From: Chlorella sorokiniana
Taxonomy: Eukaryota; Chlorophyta; Trebouxiophyceae; Chlorellales; Chlorellaceae
Length of the DNA stretch: 64,000 nt
Direction: 5' to 3'
Assembly (NCBI GenBank): GCA_025917655.1
Contig: CP084616.1
Location: forward strand, 1,426,001 to 1,490,000
Position 1 is the first letter of the stretch. Each line of letters begins with the position of its first letter. A model generated the notes under the pieces. The model worked only from the letters and a program-made list of their open reading frames with translations. It had not been told where the DNA came from and ran no database searches. A program made the translations under genes and the position numbers. Below, piece by piece: positions 24,937 to 35,093 of the stretch.

Positions 24937-27900
24937 TCAGCCCACCACGCCGATCGTGCCGGCAATGTCTGATGGCGCGTTGTTGAATTTAATGTCCAGA
25001 ATGGAGCCAGCAACCTGGAAGAGTAGGCAGGACGGGAAAACCCGGCTTGGTCAAGGGCCGAGCACAGGCGCTCGTGCGCCTGGCGCTCAAAGCTTCAAGG
25101 CTGCACACACACCGGGCCGCCAGCAGCATCACAGTCAAAGGGGGCGTGCCCGACACCCACCAGTGATAGCAGGAGTGCGCCGTTGACCACCAGGAACATG
25201 TAAGACTTGCCCGGCTTCTCGCTGCGTACAGGGGGCGGGGGCAGTGACGGTGGGAGCCATGATGCTTCGCAGCAAGCTGGCCTTTCTTTTTATTGCTTCT
25301 GCAAGCAGCAGCTGGAGTGGCTGGGGGCCGGAAGGCATGTTGAGGACTTGTCGGAGGGCAATGAGGGCGAAACCCAGCGGGCCGACGAGCCGCACCGCTC
25401 GCGGAAGTTGGGGCGCGCGGCCAGGGTGTGTTCGTAGATGGACTCCGGCAGCACCGGCACCACCATGGAGTATCCCTGGTCCAGCAGCATGGAGGCGGAG
25501 GTGGGGGAGAGCGCCGAAGCGATGCCCACCAACTGCGTGGACAGCGCCGCCACGCGCGAGGCGGCGGGGGTCTCGGCCTCTGCGGGGGGCGGCGTGGGGG
25601 GGGCAGGGGAAGTGTGAGGCGACTGACGAGTCAAGAGGCGGGGGATGCGGCAGAGCGCAGCAGCAAGGCTGCAGCACCAGGACCCAGCACAGCAGGCAGC
25701 GGGGGTGTGAGCTGGGGGCCCAGCATGGCATCATGCTGCTGCGGCACAGGGTCGCTGCTGCGGGCCTCAATCGGCGGAGAGCCCACCTTCCAGGGCCAGC
25801 TGGTCGGCCAGTGCCTGCTCGGCGGCGGCCTGCTGGGAGTCGGCGGGCTCTGCCGCAGCAGCCACCTGCACCCGGGGCGGCGGCGCGCCCGCCAGGGTCT
25901 CCACGCCGCCGATGCTGACCCTGCGCAGCCCGCGGTTGGAGCCCTCCTTGTTTTGGCGGAACGAGCTCTTGCGCGCGAGGCCCCCGGGCGCGGCGTGGCG
26001 GCGCCAGACCTGCACGCAACAGGAGCCAGGACGGCTGAATGGCATCGTGGCTGAGCTCCCTGACAGTTGCCATTGCCACACGCGTGCACAGCGCTGCAAG
26101 GTGCAGCCCGGCATGCAAGAATCAGACCGGCAGGCAGCCAAACGGCAGGGACAAGGACGCACGCAGCGGGGCTCACCTCCAGGTGGCATAGCTGTCGCCG
26201 CCCTCGGCTGCCGCGCCTCCGCCCACATCCATGGACGCGCGGCTGTTGCGCCGCACGATGGCCGGCTCCAGGGGCGGCAGGAAGGCGGAGCCCTCCAGGC
26301 GCACGGGGGCCACCAGGGGGAGCTCACCGGGCACCACGCTCAGCTGCTCCCCGCTGAGAGCGCCGCTGGTGACAGCGGCGCTGCCCCCGCCTCCAGATCC
26401 GCCTCCTTCTCCTCCCCTGCCCCCTCGATGATGGCCGTCAGGCGCGGCAGCTTCATGCTGGGCAGCAGGCTGAGCTGGCGCTCGCGCTGCGGCGGGGGAG
26501 GCTGCCTGCGCCGCCACGCCTGCCCCCGTCAGCGCCTGCAGCCGCTGCAGCGCGTCAGACTGCTGCGGCTGCAGCGACACGTTCATCCAGCTGCCTGCGG
26601 GTCGACATTGGGGCAGCGATCGGATGCTGTTTAAAGACAGCCTCCTGAGGGTTTGCTGTGCTTCTTGGAGCCAATAGGAGACCTTGACAGAGGTTGGTGG
26701 AGGCCAAAGCCAAGGCCTGTCACAGACAGAGACCGACCAGCCTGCATCCTATCACTGGCCGGCAGCAATGCGTTGCCCCCAGCCCCTCTCCTCACCCAGG
26801 CGGCCGCTCTTCTGTGGCTCAGCGATGTTCATGGCGGGGTGCCTGCCGGCGCGTCCAGCAGCAGCGAGGCCTCTGGGTCTTTGGCCTCGCTGCCGCTGGC
26901 GGGCGCGATGCGACCCTCCGCATCCAGCAGCACCGACACCTGCCGCATGCTGGCGTCGCCCAGCCTGACCGACCGCTCCGGCAGCACCTGGGGGCAGGGG
27001 GCGGGGCAGGTGTGCGGGACGGCCCTGTCAAGCAGCGAGCAACAGCAGCGCACGGCAGTGCTACAAGATCTTGGGCAGGAGACGGCTGCATCGAGGATGG
27101 CCCACAGCCCCCTCGACCACGGAAACTGTGCGAGTGGGCGGCGGCATCTCACCACTGATGTGAGCAGCGCCGACTGCAGCAGCGCCTTGTCCAGCTGGCC
27201 CCTCATGCCCACGCGGCCCAGGTTGGCAAAGCGATCTCGCGCGCCCGCCCCGCGGCCGCGGCGAAGGCCACGCTGGCCTCCGGCTCGCCCAGATGCTGCA
27301 GCACGGAGGCACGAAAGCGAGCCTGATTTGAGCGTGTGGCTTGCACAGAGGGTTAGTCGGTGGCAGGCTGCTGGTCAGCCTTCATTGACACACAACGGCA
27401 GCAGAGCGCACCTGTGATGACAGCGCCACAGAAGGCTGGGCAGCCACCGGCCCGCTGGCGAAGCGGTCCATGTCGATCGACACGCAGCCAGGCGGCGGTG
27501 GGGGCACGGCCAGAGGGACCTGCTGGCCCGGCGGCAGGGTGCACAAAGGCGGAAGCAAGCTCGGCAGCAAGGACAGCGGGCTCAGACTGCCACCTGCGCT
27601 GGGCTCCCCGCAAGCACGCAAGTCACCAGCACGACCTGCACTGCGCCCCACGACGGCCCACTTTTCCCTTTGGGCTTGCCTGGGAGACTGCGGCAAAGGG
27701 CGACACGTAGCTGGCGGCGGCGGCGGGCGGTGGCGGCCCCTCCTCGGAGCTCGTCCTGCCGGAGCCCTGCAAGGACAGCGTGGGGTGGGGGTGGTGGGGG
27801 CCCACAGGCAGCGGCTTGATGATGAGGCACGCTGGTCAGCACGGGATGCCGGCCGGCAGCCGAGAGAGCTCAGCCCGCATGTTTCAGCCCCACTGAGCCT

Positions 27901-30900
27901 CGCTGCGAAGAAAACAACGAGCGACTGCCACAGGCTTGCGTTGTCCGCCGCCGCAGGCCGCCGCATGCCCTGCTTGCCTGCTGCGCCGCGTCGTCGCCGT
28001 CGTCCTCGGGGATTGTCTCTGGCGGGGCGCCGCCAAAGGGCGAGGAGCCAAAGGGCGAGGCGGTGAAGGAAGAGGCGCCAAAGGGCGAGGCGGTGAAGGA
28101 AGAGGCGGCGAAGGGAGAGGCGTTGAAGGAGGGCCCGGTGAAAGGGGAGGCGCCAAAGGGCGAGACCGAGGAGGCCGCGGGGCCCAGGCTGCTGCCGGCC
28201 CCCATGAAGGACACAGACTGCGGCGGCGGCGGGTGCGGCGACAGCGGGCCCCCCGCACTTTGCCGTGCCAGGGCGGCCAGGCCGCGGGGATGTCCATCGA
28301 CGCGCGCTGACGCTGGCCAGCACGTCGCCTATGCTGCGGCGCGGCTCGCGGGGCGCGCGATGCTGCGCCGCGGGTCGGCGTCCGGGGCGGCAGGCGGGCC
28401 GCCCATGCTGCGCCGCCCGCCGCCAAACCCAAGCGCCTGCACGCTGCGCAGCAGCAGGCTGGGCTGCTCGCCCTCGCCGCCCAGGCCGCCGCTGAGGGTG
28501 CGGGAGCCGTAGTGCGACACGCTGGTGCGCCCAAAGTGCAGCGACTGCTGGCGCTGGGCGTACTTGGCGGGGTCGGCAAACGGGTCCCAGCAGATCTTCC
28601 AGCCCGCCTCCGTCTCCACGCTGCAGGCAGCAGGGCAGGCAGGGGAGAGCCGAGGAGGGGGAGGAAGCCACAGGCCAGTCAGCCGGGCCAGGAGGCGGGG
28701 CAGGGCGGCCGCTGGAAGCGTGGCGAGTGCGGCTGGCATGGGCCGGCGGCTGGGTGGCCCCTCACCGGGGGACCATGGTCCAGACGGGGGCCAGAGGCAC
28801 ATGACGATGAGCACGCCCCAGGAGATGGCGGACAGGTAGATCATGATTTGCCAGGAGCTGCGGGCGGGTGGGGCGCGGCACGTTGTTTTGGATGGGGGTG
28901 GAGTGGGGATAGTAGGGATGGGATGAGTGGTTGGGGGGAAACGGTAGATGGAAGAAGATGAGGGTTTGAGGGGTTGTGTGGGGGTGATAGATGGCGTGGG
29001 GCAAGGGGTTATGTGAGGAGGGGGGATCTCATCAAGCAGGTCTGTTCAGGCCGGTGCAAGTGACCATGCCCCTCATCCACAGCCACGGGCCAGCAGCAAC
29101 AAGGGAGCAGACAGGTTGCAGGGGGTGGGCGCTCTTTGTGCGTCGCAGAGGCAAGGCCCGGGGCTTGCGCCGGTTCGAGGCACCTGTACCGCACCTGTAC
29201 CATCCCATGGCTGCCGTGACGATGAAGTAGATGACGCCGGCTGTGAAGGCGGCATAGTAGGTGAGGTGGGGCCAGGTCACGGTGAGCGCCTTCTTGAACA
29301 GCACCCACTGCGTCTCCGCCTCCTTGTCCTTCTTGGTGACCTGGGCGGGCGGCGCGGGCAGGGCAGCGCAACGATCATGGGTGGTCCGGGCAGGGTTCGC
29401 CAATGACAATCTTGCCCTTGAAAAGAACACCGTGAGCATGCGCTGCATCGAAACGGCAACTTTGTGCTGCATCAAAACGGCAGGCACGCCCGCAGCCGCC
29501 CGCCACGCACCGTGAACCCGATCTCAAAGTTGAACAGCTTCTTCACGATTGGGTTCTCCGCCACCAGCACCTTCCAGATGGCCTGCGCTCGAGGACACGG
29601 AGACAGCAGGTCGGAGGGGAGGGATGCGCCCAGACACGTAAAGCTGCGCTGGCCAGAGCCCAAGAGGGATGCCAGCCAAGGGATGCCCCGCTGCAGACGC
29701 AGTTCCCCTCACCTTGACGTGATTCGGCGCCATCCAGACCCACATCTGCAGAGGAGCAGCCAAGGGGACGGTTGATCAAGGCTGCCGATCACAAGGCGTT
29801 GCTCTTGCATCGGCCCCACAAACGGATGCTGCACCCGCCGCTGCGGCCCCACACCTGGGAGCCGCGCCAGAGCTCCTGCGAGCCGCCCTCGGTGCCGCGG
29901 TGCACCCACAGCATCATCACGCGGTTGGAAAGGTACCAGGATCCGAAGACGACGGCAAACTCCCAGAGGTGAGCGCACACCTGGGCCCAGCCAAGGGGGC
30001 GGCGGGAAGCAGGCGGGGCCAGTGAGGGCAACAGGAGCAGGCTGCTTTGCTGCGCTGCTGCTGCGTGTCGCGCGCCACATGGCGTCTCGCAGCCATCCTC
30101 GGCAGTGCGGCGTAAGGAGCTTGCAGGAGTTGTAAGCAGCCTGCGCTGCAAGGTTGCGAATCGGAGCAACCAAGGGTGGCTGCGCCTCACCATGGGCGAC
30201 ACCTCCGCAAACAGGAAGACGATGGGCACAACCGCCATGAAAATCGTGGAGAGAGCCAGGTAGTGGTGAGCAGCGGCCTCGAAGAACAGCAGGGACTGCC
30301 AGGCGGTGAGGCCGTTCTGCAGGGGAGTCAGGGACAGGTGGCATGGGCGAGCGGGCAACGGGGCAGCAGGCACACAGGAGGAGGATGCTCTATTGATGAC
30401 ACTCGACCGCCCACAAGCCGACGCGAGGTAAGCGATACCATGCAAGCCGGTGGGCAGCACATGCAAAGCGGCCACGCAAGGGGCGTCTCTTTGAGGTTGT
30501 AGCACAGCACCCACCAAGCGGAGCGGGTTGTCCTTCATGAGGATCTGCGGGGCAGCAGCCGGCAAAGCACGAGCTCAGCAGCCCGTTGCCTCAAGGCTTC
30601 CGCACAGGGAAAAGCGCTGTGCTGTGTTGTGCTGCGCAGGGCCTCTTCGGGGGGCCAAAGTGCGGCGCCAACACAGCACAGCACAGGGCAGCGCAGCACA
30701 GCATGCACGCCACGCTGCGCAGGCAAGGCGGGTCCCCCACCTGCAGCGCGCCCATGGCCCAGCGCAGGCGCTGCGTCATCACGTCCTGGATCAGGTCGGG
30801 GGCCATGCCGAAGGAGAGGCGCTCGTTGAGGAACATGGTGGCGAAGCCGGCGCTCATGAGCGTCATGGCTGAGTTGTAGTCCTCGGTGATGGAGCCGTAG

Positions 30901-33900
30901 GCCTGCGCGCAGCGTGACCACAGCGCGACCACAGCGTCACCACAGCGCGGGCGTGGTCGTGAAACGTGCAATGTGGCCACTGCAAAAGCAAACCTGAGCG
31001 CAAAGTGCCTGGGCATGCGGCAGCGTCGAGGGGGTGGGTTGGAGCAGCGGGGCAGCAGCCCCACCTGGCCGCCGATGGAGATGAGGATGTCTCGCCGGAA
31101 GACGACCCCGTGCCGCAGCAGGGAGCGGCGCCGATGCCGTCGCGGCCTTGCAGCATGGGACCTGCTCACAGGAGGCGCAGCGGGCAGGCAGGCTGTAAGG
31201 AGCTTGCAAGCGGCTGGCAGTCTGTGGTGCCAAATGCTTCCTGCGCCGGCAGCTCAGCGACCTGCCACCCACCGTAGAAGAAGCGCGCGCAGTGCACCAC
31301 TGCGCAATGAAGGGGGCACGCAAGGCAAGGATTTAGAGGAGGGCGCCAGGGGGAGCAGTCAGTGCAAAACCGGCCAGAACAAGCTGCCTTTGCAGTGCAA
31401 CCACCGGCAACGGCGACTCACTTCTGTGGGGCGACAGAGCGAGGCAGACGGGTGATGGGGGAGGAAAGAAATGGCGTTGGTTCAGCATGGTTTCAGCATG
31501 CATGCAAGGGTGTCCCATGCAGCCCTGCCCCACGGCGCAAGCACCCACGCATGCATGGCTGCCCTTGCTGGCAGCGCGCCCAACGCATAAACTCACGGAT
31601 CGGATGCGTCCACGTTGAAAAAGTCCTGGCGATAGAAAAACAGCAGAGGGCGTGGTGCGTGAGCCAAGCAAGTCGTGCTCCGTTGCGGGGCGAGAAGCGA
31701 CACACAAACAGGGCTGTCACGCATGCACAGCCCCGGCTCTGCAAGGGCGCACTGTCAAGCAGCCCCGTGCAGCAGCAAGCCTGCAGTCAAACGCAGCACT
31801 CACGACACCCGAGGGTCAGCACCTGCGGGGTCTGCATGAAGGCGGCCTTGCGCTTGGGCACCCAGGTGTCGCCCTTCTGGCGGTAGAAGTGCCCGATCAT
31901 CTTCTGGAGGATGTCGGGGTGCACGACTGCAGGAGGATGTGGCGAGGAGAAGCGACATGCAAGGGCGTGGTCATGCACCGAATGGTTGCCTGGCTGGCAG
32001 GTGCAGGAGAGCAGGAGGCACCGTAGAGGGCGGAATGGCACGGCATGCGGGGGCCACGTGTGTGGCCACTGCTGGGCGCAGGCTCACTCATATCGCAATC
32101 CAGCACCAAGATAAACTCGCCCTGCAAAAGGGGAGCACGGGTCGGGATGGCAGGCAACTCGCATTCACAGTCTCGCAGAGACGCTTACACGTTTCTTACT
32201 GAAGAGCACGCAGCTGCCCTGCCCGGCCAGCCGCCAGTTCGTGCCCATTCCCCTTAACCCCCACTTGCCCAAACACACCTTGCCGGGCCCCTCCTTCAGC
32301 AGGCAGGAGTTGATGTTGCCGGCCTTGGCGTGGTGCGGCACGCCCTTCACCTTGCTGCGCCCGCAGTACACAATCGATGCGTCGCTGCGCGGGTCAAGGC
32401 GAGAGGGGGCAGGGCGAACCGTCAGGCATTGCTCGTGCTGCTGACCTCGCATGCTGTGGTTTCTGTTGCAAGTCTGGACCCCCTCCTTGCCATGCTCAGC
32501 CCACCTGCATGTAGCGGCACTGGTAGGCCAGGCGCTTGACCAGGCGCGCCATGATGGGCCGCTTGCCGTCGTCCAGAATGTGCACCTGAGAGTTGGGGTA
32601 AAAGTGGCGGGGAAGGGGGTGAAACAGGCGGATGCTCAGGCCCAGCTGCAAAACTTTATTCTGGCAGTCAGCGCCAGGAGGGGCAGCGACGCACCGTGAG
32701 CTTGTCGCCCGGCCAGTTGACGTTGAGGGCGGCGATGGCGGTGGGCTCCACAATCTCGGGGGCTCTGCGGGTGGCAGAAGCGGCTCAAGGCAGCTTGTTG
32801 CCGACAAGAATTGTCACCAAGTCGCCAACAGGGAAGGGCGTAGTATGTCTCAGGGGGCAGCAGCACAGCAGCTCTTGACATGCCACGAGCGCATGTTGCA
32901 GGCGGGGACGGGCGGGCGCCCGCAGCACCCTCCCCACCAGAGTAGGTGCAGATGAAGATGTCGACGTGCGGGAAGCGCTCGGGGGCATCATATCCTCCAT
33001 GCGCCGCTCGGGCCGCTCAATCTGCGCAGGGCATGGGCAGCAGGGTAAATGCAGCGGCACAAGTGTCGGCAGGAACCTGCACCAGGCTGGCTGGTGCTGG
33101 CACCGTGGAGGGGACTGGAAGCGTCAGGGATCAGGGGCGCAAAACGTGCGGCAAGCCAGCAAGACGGCCAGCTCAGAACCTCATGCCTCTCACCATGTAG
33201 TACAGGCTGGCCACGAAGCAGAAGGAGAGGCAGTACGCCGAGAACTCAGCCAGCCTGCAGCAAGCGCGGTGGGTGGGGGCCCTCGCCCTCAGGAGCCGAC
33301 GGGCAGCTGCTGCTCGGCTGCCAGAGACCTGCCTCAGTAGGAACGTTGCTGCGTGCGACTGAAGCTGGGCATCCCACACGGCACCGCAGCAGCACAGCGC
33401 AAAGCCCAGCGCACCAGAAGGGGATTGAGTAGAAGTAGAGCCAGCCGGGGTGCAGCGTGCGCAGAGCGCGCCAGACCAGATACACGGCTCCCAGGGACTG
33501 GGCAGAGGCGGCGGCAGGCGGGGCAGGAGCAGGGTCAGTGCAAGTGGGGGTTGGTGGCAGAGGGCACCGCTGGCTGTGCATGTGGCGGGATTCGTGACTG
33601 TCCTGCTTGGACGACGAATCAGTGGGGCCGTGCGAGCAGTGCAACGCCCTCCTCACACCACCCCACCCGCCCGGGTCAACCCAGCCCAGCCACCACCCCG
33701 TGGCCAGCCCCGCCCAACCCCAACCTGCGTGAGGATGGCCAGGATGCGGAAGACCTTGGTCTCCCTCTTGGGCACGGTGCCTTCTGTGCCCCAGCCCTCG
33801 TTGCCGCGCGCCACCAGCTGGCGCAGCGCCTCGGCGGCCGCGTCCCCCGCCTTGCCCCCGCCCTCTCCCACCATGGCGCTGGTCACAGTGGAGGTGGCCC

Positions 33901-35093
33901 TGCTGCTGACCACACTGATGGCGACGCCGCCTTGCGCCGACGACGCCTGGGGCGAGGTGGGGCGGCAGCTGGCGGCTGCGACGCCGCCGCCGAAGGCTGC
34001 GGCGTGGCGGGCCCCGAGGGCGCGGGGACGCCGCCGCCAGCGACGTGGGCGGGGAGGCGGCCGGGAGCCCTCGGAGCCGCCCTCTGGCGTCTCGCTGGCA
34101 TCCGAGCCGCTGCCGCTGACTGACGCCACCTGGCGCAGCGAGCGTGGCGCCTGCGCGCCGTTGCTGCGCGGCTTGGCCAGGCCCAGGTAACGGGCGACCA
34201 AGTCGTCCCGGCTGGGCCGCGGCTTGGCTGTGCCCTCCCGCACCGCCCGCAGGAAGTTTGCGGCCACCGAGTGCCCCGCACATTTGGCAACCTGCTCCGG
34301 AAGCTCTCCTGCATGGCGGAGGCACCGGGCCAGGTGTGCAGCAGGGGGCCAGACTGAAGACGCTGCCAAGACAGCAGAGGGCAGCCCCGCCAAGCCTGCC
34401 AGGCCGGCCGAGCATTCGCATTGCTCCAATTTTGCGGTAACAAACCCAGCCCGGATCAGGTTGGACAGCCCAGCCCGCCGCACGGCGCCTCACCGAGGGC
34501 ATTTGCCGTAGCGGGGTCGGCCCCCATGCCAGCAGCGCCTCGCAAGCGGCCACCGAGCCGCTTCCGGCGGCATAATGCAGCGTCGTGTCGCGCCAGTCGT
34601 CCTTCTTCATCTTGCTGTGGTCCGCGCCGCGCTGGAGCAGCCACACCATGGCAGCTGCAGAGGGGGCCGGGCACGCTGGTTGGGGTGGGAGCGGGCAGCG
34701 ACGTGGTCGTGGCGGGTGCTGGGTGCATGCACACGCAGCGAGCTTGGCGGGCTGGCTGCGGCCCCTGGCATCCCCTTTGGAATGGTCACCTGCATGGCCC
34801 TGCACCGCTGCGGCGTGCAGGGCGGTGAAGCCCAGCAGGTCGGCGTCCACCTTGAAGTCGGGCAGGCGGCTGATCAGCTGCAGCTCAGGCACGCGCCCTC
34901 GCGCCGCCAGGCGGAGCTGTCCGGCGGCCACGCTGTTCATCCGGCCCCGCCCGGCTCGCCATTTGCAAAAGCTGAACCAGGCGTAGAGGGCAGCGACGGT
35001 GAAGACCGCAACGCCGAGCATGAGGACGCCCCATTTGTCTATTCCAGGGTCGTCGGCGGCTTTCAGACCCACATCTTCTGAGATTGCGGACAT
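24937..35093 (-). CDS. Ankyrin-repeat/cellulose synthase-type GT2 glycosyltransferase fusion
   Basis: About 33 exons from ATG 35093 to TGA 24939-24937, roughly 1,600 residues. Order: a membrane anchor (VLMLGVAVFTVAALYAWFSF); about three ankyrin repeats (LLGFTALHAAAVQGHA, TTLHYAAGSGSVAACEALL); a linker; two TM helices; a GT2 catalytic domain; four more TM helices; a long Ser/Pro/Ala tail; and a last TM helix (MFLVVNGALLLSLVAGSIL). All processive-GT2 signatures are present: VHILDDGKR, HHAKAGNINSCL, LDCDM (DxD), SITEDYNSAM (TED) and QRLRW (QxxRW). The post-catalytic region resembles bacterial BcsA. It should polymerise a beta-glucan, probably cellulose, from UDP-glucose at a membrane; the exact product is inferred. 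Frame needs repair at 31106-31109, 32758-32762, about 32990, 34521-34525 and several tail sites. Two tail introns start GC (27977 and 27679). Confidence 0.85.
28041..28170 (-). repeat. Short tandem repeats coding ASSFTASPFG-like units
   Basis: In the tail of the GT2 protein, SPFGA/SxF units repeat about six to eight times at 27- to 30-base spacing (ASPFAASSFTASPFGASSF). The DNA repeats are near-identical in GGCGGTGAAGGAAGAGGCG. The units look like flexible, phosphorylatable linkers. Confidence 0.7.
30616..30682 (-). repeat. Intronic inverted repeat with 14-bp perfect arms
   Basis: GCTGTGCTGTGTTG (30616-30629) is the exact reverse complement of CAACACAGCACAGC (30669-30682), with a GC-rich 39-base loop. 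It lies in an intron of the GT2 gene between exons 30902-30741 and 30544-30515, and would fold in the RNA. Confidence 0.8.
31422..31423 (-). other. Candidate 2-nucleotide micro-exon of the GT2 gene
   Basis: Reading the - strand, TGTCGCCCCACAG is followed by AA and then GTGAGTCGCC: a strong acceptor and a strong donor two bases apart. The flanking exons (31625-31597 ending in phase 2, 31299-31273 entering in phase 1) do not fit directly. Adding these two bases restores the frame as VDASDP-M-VHCARFFYG. A lost base in a flanking exon would be the alternative explanation. Confidence 0.35.

Follow-up and report, generated by a model that had tools for sequence, protein, structure and literature searches.

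The stretch analysed here, a 64,000-nucleotide window of the Chlorella sorokiniana genome (C11:1426001-1490000; genome of 38.8 Mb in 15 contigs), carries on its minus strand a multi-exon gene with short introns that runs from an ATG at 35093 to a TGA ending at 24937 and whose predicted protein joins ankyrin repeats to a membrane-bound glycosyltransferase of the GT2 class. From its N-terminus, the protein has an anchor helix, an ankyrin block of three to four repeats, a linker of low complexity, a pair of helices, the GT2 domain, further helices and a long low-complexity tail. Exon models were built by hand from genomic DNA of high G+C content (0.615-0.719 across the window in 2 kb steps); coding exons are numbered 1-23 up to 27978, with a 2-base exon left uncounted, and nine further exons follow (Table 1). 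The three 5' exons lie where the initial annotation had placed them, with GT donors and AG acceptors, exon 1 being one base longer than noted.

Domain content of the ankyrin-GT2 gene

The first 350 residues match the Pfam families Ank_2 (3.3e-9; 37.6 bits against a cut-off of 27.3), Ank (1.5e-8; 34.9 against 21.1), Ank_4 (1.1e-7; 32.4 against 22.7) and Ank_3 (2.9e-7), all above cut-off, while an Ank_5 match (0.0014) falls under its own. Consecutive repeats thus exceed the Pfam cut-off, and the ankyrin repeats that had been proposed to follow a membrane anchor are borne out. The part after the ankyrin block matches Glyco_trans_2_3 (6.4e-20) and Cellulose_synt (1.2e-19), again both above cut-off, and carries the motifs DDG, HAKAGN, DCD, TED and QRLRW, in agreement with the GT2 domain first described from its DDG, KAGN, DCD, TED and QRLRW motifs. 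The D, DxD, TED and QxxRW signature of processive GT2 enzymes of the BcsA/CesA kind is therefore present in a core between membrane helices, and hydropathy over the first 888 residues places a single helix ahead of the ankyrin block, two more between it and the catalytic domain, and another three beyond that domain. The best NCBIfam profile is CelA (TIGR03030; 1.3e-67, residues 6-486), far ahead of PgaC (5.8e-15) and NodC (5.2e-9), with 228.4 bits set against a family cut-off of 699.1. In a comparison with solved structures, BcsA is the stronger match of the GT2 part (2.2e-38); the best chain in the plant CesA size class reaches 4.1e-21, the chains of this class (7d5k, 6wlb) being ones that we take to be plant CesA.

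The Pfam scans covered the gene except for some 35 residues midway through exon 23. No PilZ domain was found in exons 4-22, the start of exon 23 or exons 28 onward (E up to 1), no RING-type zinc finger in exons 1-3 (E up to 1), no PH or GH9 domain in the scanned parts of the gene, and no match of any kind in the tail pieces (E up to 10).

Table 1. Features of the window copy of the ankyrin-GT2 gene.
Feature	Position in window	Strand	Content
Exon 1	34790..35093	-	Start ATG; single hydrophobic anchor GVLMLGVAVFTVAALYAWF; N-terminal repeat-like helices; first clear ankyrin repeat DLLGFTALHAAAVQGHA
Exon 2	34494..34654	-	Remainder of repeat 1, then ankyrin repeat 2 DTTLHYAAGSGSVAACEALLAW; reading frame broken at a G5 run common to the C7 copy
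Exon 3	33725..34308	-	Last ankyrin repeat (degenerate); linker of low complexity; conserved RQLVARGNEGWGTEG stretch; beginning of GT2 helix 1; one open frame
Exons 4-5	33497-33415, 33254-33194 (33194..33497)	-	Synthase helices one and two
Exons 6-9	32279..33021	-	GT2 U1 (VDIFICTYS..ILDDG), HAKAGN; breaks at C5 runs (exons 6, 7) and at the start of exon 9
Exons 10-14	31065..32121	-	DCD, QTPQDFFN and CCGTG stretch; implied 2-base exon 31423-31422; frame break in exon 14
Exon 15	30741..30902	-	Motifs TED and QRLRW
Exons 16-22	28766..30544	-	C-terminal synthase part with three or more hydrophobic helices; exon 22 breaks frame at a C5 run
Exon 23 and nine further exons	24937..28620	-	Long low-complexity tail; last hydrophobic stretch SYMFLVVNGALLLSLVAGSILDI, judged by eye; TGA
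TGTAA	24581..24585	-	Presumed polyadenylation signal of green-algal type, 352 bases past the stop

A second copy on C7 and the frame breaks of both copies

A second copy of the gene, found exon by exon, lies on the minus strand of contig C7, where it starts near 2132674 (the counterpart of exon 1 being 2132674-2132343) and was read to about 2124400; it holds the anchor, the repeats, the conserved linker end RQLVARGNEGWGTEGT and the GT2 core. Splice signals fall at matching places in the 23 exon pairs compared, and the copies were seen to differ in structure only by one additional intron in the window gene. None of the 79 tblastn matches between C7 open reading frames (35 kb, at least 40 residues) and the window falls outside the gene, which argues for a dispersed copy of one gene; a segmental duplication was rejected since there is no sign of copied neighbours.

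Comparison of the two copies, with frames set by hand, revealed that ankyrin repeats 1-2 are constrained about as tightly as the enzyme. The ratio of non-synonymous to synonymous divergence (dN/dS) is 0.107 in these repeats (104 codons, 91% identical; bootstrap 0.04-0.21), 0.123 in the first, catalytic half of the GT2 part (303 codons, 95% identical; 0.06-0.21) and 0.136 in the C-terminal helices (207 codons, 89% identical). Higher values were obtained for the anchor (0.35; 43 codons, 49% identical, hydrophobic-looking in both copies), the conserved end of exon 3 (0.28; 43 codons, 77% identical) and the last repeat (0.31; 25 codons, 76% identical, with a wide interval of 0.08-0.83). Synonymous distance varies among the parts from 0.29 to 1.36, and single figures should not be over-read. 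Because repeats 1-2 are about as conserved between the copies as the catalytic half, the fusion would be older than the duplication and under selection, and natural selection appears to preserve it. Together with the paralogue itself, this pattern strengthens the proposal of the initial annotation that ankyrin repeats are fused to a GT2 domain of the BcsA/CesA type.

As assembled, the window copy is out of frame in exons 2, 6, 7, 9, 14 and 22 and in several tail exons, which the first reading had left unmentioned. In exons 2, 6 and 22 the two copies break at an identical run, G5 or C5; exon 7 of the C7 copy reads C6, its exons 9 and 14 are in frame, and its exons 1, 3, 13 and 15 carry breaks that the window copy does not share. 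Across 99 kb, made up of the window and the loci L031, L032, L037 and L038, G/C runs of 4, 5, 6, 7 and 8 bases number 872, 385, 51, 23 and 10, giving a ratio of 0.13 for the step from 5 to 6 compared with 0.43-0.45 for the steps 4-5, 6-7 and 7-8 and 0.27-0.33 for lower steps; A/T runs fall from 43 to 6 at the same step, though these numbers are small. The strong shortage of G/C runs of length 6 suggests that such runs are read as 5, and an HSP70-type gene on C3, the sole control gene, likewise has two frame changes in one stretch, near CCCCC and near GGGGG. In both copies, most of the frame breaks seem to come from 6-base G/C runs being under-called in the assembly. Since G/C runs disrupt gene models in this genome, automated annotation may have split or missed the ankyrin-GT2 fusion.

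Three further observations concern the splicing of the two copies and their synonymous divergence. Within 31625-31273 (minus strand), the extra intron of the window copy lies two bases before an existing donor (GATCC-intron-AA-GTGAGT); comparison with C7 implies that a 2-base exon at 31423-31422 is needed to keep the frame, an apparent intron gain or splicing puzzle. GC-type donors are apparent after 27978 and 27680 in the window gene, and the donor at C7:2126459 reads GCGCGT where its window counterpart reads GTGCGG. The synonymous distance of the catalytic half in exons 4-15 (0.29) is lower than that of the ankyrin part (0.51), possibly a sign of gene conversion or of codon constraint.

Relatives among bacteria and in the green lineage

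A scan of 84,980 prokaryotic species genomes yielded at least 594 candidates and at least 553 relatives, the best 80 loci of which were kept. Cyanobacteria contribute 57 of these best 80, including the first 19 among the matches listed, and the ten best relatives are cyanobacterial synthases 36-40% identical to the window protein. Open reading frames were recovered from 77 of the 80 loci (L102, L118 and L120 gave none), and an ankyrin pattern was found in none of the 77, although the pattern is crude and would miss repeat 1 of the window protein itself. The spacing between DDG and AKAG in these frames is 132-146 or 272-275 residues in cyanobacterial sequences and 27-31 in the other prokaryotic ones, compared with 42 in the window protein, indicating that the latter lacks the PCR-type insert of cyanobacteria between U1 and U2. 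In PMC12430437, cyanobacterial synthases of the Nostoc alr3757 type are described as devoid of PilZ, like the scanned parts of the window protein, and as bearing a plant-like PCR insert, a description that would fit the long spacing of the cyanobacterial sequences. Three cyanobacterial sequences compared with the window protein have in common with it PHHAKAGN, QTPQDF, FYGP..QG.DG, SITED.N.AM and QRLRWA; the insert is theirs and missing in the window protein, and no ankyrin repeats were seen in them by the crude test. Relatives were found for none of the 2 and 81 candidates of two viral contig scans and for none of the 11 candidates of a first genome contig scan; a PF13641 family search of the alga's own genome also gave no match, which has little meaning as the exons are short.

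A tree built by a quick method from 58 sequences (54 of the 77 bacterial open reading frames, comprising 34 of the 57 cyanobacterial and all 20 others, with the two algal copies, an E. coli-type BcsA stretch and a partial sequence from C1) gives cyanobacteria as the closest neighbours of the algal pair by path, but the pair falls outside them and has a long branch. The cyanobacterial insert had been removed, the tool warned of long branches meeting and the C1 sequence forms an extreme branch; no origin is drawn from this tree.

Compared with bacterial BcsA (TIGR03030; solved as 4hg6, 7lby and 9fmv), the window protein shares the catalytic core and motifs, with 34% identity to the E. coli-type 9b8v stretch, but the PilZ domain of BcsA was not found in it, and it adds the ankyrin block and the anchor. 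Plant CesA is likewise a processive GT2 enzyme with an N-terminal accessory domain ahead of the first synthase helix, whereas its zinc finger has no match in window exons 1-3, its long DDG-AKAG insert has no counterpart in the window gene and the structure match is weaker. A third BcsA-like gene in this genome (locus L039, C1:3419001-3429000) lies at C1:3419-3426k on the minus strand and presents GT2 exons followed by GH9 exons on one strand; it is 31% identical to the window gene over one aligned exon, at a weak E-value of 0.03. A CesA-like/GH9 architecture is reported from the trebouxiophyte Coccomyxa in PMC3446292, also a cellulose-synthase-like GT2 of green algae but with GH9 in place of ankyrin, and since the C1 exons resemble it, the ankyrin-GT2 pair would be a second type in this genome. 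A CesA-like/GH9 gene of this sort, like the G+C content and size of the genome, is consistent with a trebouxiophyte alga. The CslO/CslP proteins of streptophyte algae resemble the window gene by description: PMC9915684 presents them as BcsA-like members of the green lineage near the CesAs of cyanobacteria, oomycetes and tunicates and counts mixed-linkage and arabinoglucan synthases among them, and its main text does not contain the word "ankyrin".

Predicted function, alternatives and significance

We consider it fairly probable that the gene encodes a membrane-embedded processive GT2 synthase, probably of beta-1,4-glucan, that carries a cytosolic ankyrin docking block. Under this proposal a single nuclear gene would encode the synthase, its product would most likely be beta-1,4-glucan (cellulose) for the cell wall, and an anchor with three to four cytosolic ankyrin repeats would be placed directly ahead of the enzyme. 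The cytosolic position is suggested by the basic KWRAGRGR after the anchor, following the positive-inside rule, together with the helix count. Ankyrin blocks usually bind proteins, so that tethering of a partner to the synthase is probable; a docking role is plausible for a module that is under purifying selection and expected on the cytosolic side. Lying beside the catalytic domain, the block may dock a partner protein that could position the synthase, assemble complexes or switch activity, taking the place held by PilZ in BcsA and by the zinc finger in plant CesA, and the long tail of low complexity may have the same purpose.

The ankyrin and GT2 parts are predicted to form one gene, not two, because exon 34308-33725 of the window copy links the last repeat ELPEQVAKCAGHSVAANFL to the beginning of helix 1 (KVFRILAILTQ) within a single open frame and because the C7 paralogue, the stronger ground, has a like architecture; the single splice-joined gene of the initial annotation stands on the same two grounds. 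Two neighbouring genes, one for an ankyrin membrane protein and one for a GT2 synthase, united solely by the proposed splicing, are very improbable. Such a pair would be favoured by exon models resting on genomic DNA, by the low-complexity linker and by an in-frame Met near 33874 within it in the window copy; in addition, another frame of exon 3 is likewise open, as G+C-rich sequence may be by chance, which makes openness weak as a sole argument, and in C7 exon 3 as assembled the ankyrin and GT2 parts are in different frames. Owing to that shift, the argument from C7 is one of part order and of the missing start codon: C7 has an equivalent exon, but the only Met in its GT2 frame sits within helix 1, with none before, making a separate GT2 start unlikely. 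The matching splice signals and the lack of TGTAA between exons 3 and 4 of the window copy (another TGTAA lies inside a later intron, at 32189) also speak against two genes, which were rejected on exon 3 continuity and the C7 paralogue. We give equally little credence to a decaying pseudogene with several exons out of frame, for which one can cite at least six breaks in window exons 1-22, others in the C7 copy and a two-base deficit in exon 9 that lies outside run miscounting. It was rejected on the shared break sites of exons 2, 6 and 22, the mark of 6-to-5 under-calling in the G/C run counts and the two frame shifts of the C3 HSP70-type gene (one gene, presumed active), and the dN/dS of about 0.1 in both the ankyrin and GT2 parts is likewise at odds with decay.

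It is unlikely, though a less distant prospect, that the enzyme makes another polymer, such as mixed-linkage glucan, beta-1,3-glucan or a polymer of N-acetylglucosamine, while the ankyrin block still serves as a docking site. The FFCGS stretch of E. coli BcsA is replaced by PCCGTG in the window protein, and the related CslO/CslP proteins include synthases of mixed-linkage glucan and arabinoglucan (PMC9915684), but the CelA profile leads PgaC and NodC by a wide margin and the closest prokaryotic relatives are cyanobacterial, the three compared having GTN or GTD at that position. Several points weigh against a cellulose synthase with an ankyrin docking block. The GT2 class covers synthases of cellulose, mixed-linkage glucan, curdlan and other polymers, sequence cannot reveal the product, and the CelA score, far under its cut-off, does not make the protein a TIGR03030 equivalog. 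Moreover, this proposal must attribute the frame breaks to assembly error, whereas some lie away from 5-base runs (window exons 9 and 14; in C7, at a T run and at a C4 run) and the exon 9 deficit is unexplained by run miscounting.

Cellulose synthases are controlled in bacteria by the cyclic-di-GMP-binding PilZ domain and in land plants by complex assembly and accessory proteins; to our knowledge, the control of cellulose-type synthases in algae outside the land-plant line is poorly known. We tentatively suggest that a green algal lineage evolved a control module of its own, in which PilZ is absent and a membrane-anchored ankyrin block, present before the duplication and conserved about as well as the catalytic core, recruits a partner that places or switches wall synthesis. 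The conserved block in two paralogues would offer a handle, or bait, for finding a partner dedicated to a wall synthase in chlorophytes. No ankyrin-GT2 fusion was reported in the titles and abstract openings of the papers listed on ankyrin or chlorophyte cellulose synthases, a sample mostly without subscription papers and weak evidence of novelty, and the word "ankyrin" is missing from the main texts of PMC3797821, PMC3446292, PMC5122149, PMC12430437, PMC4023592, PMC3091534, PMC9915684 and PMC10762512. Elsewhere in this genome, dense clusters of ankyrin-encoding sequence occur at C5:2248297-2261252, C3:343770-346732, C3:911625-914800 and C2:594167-597106, possibly representing expanded ankyrin gene families.

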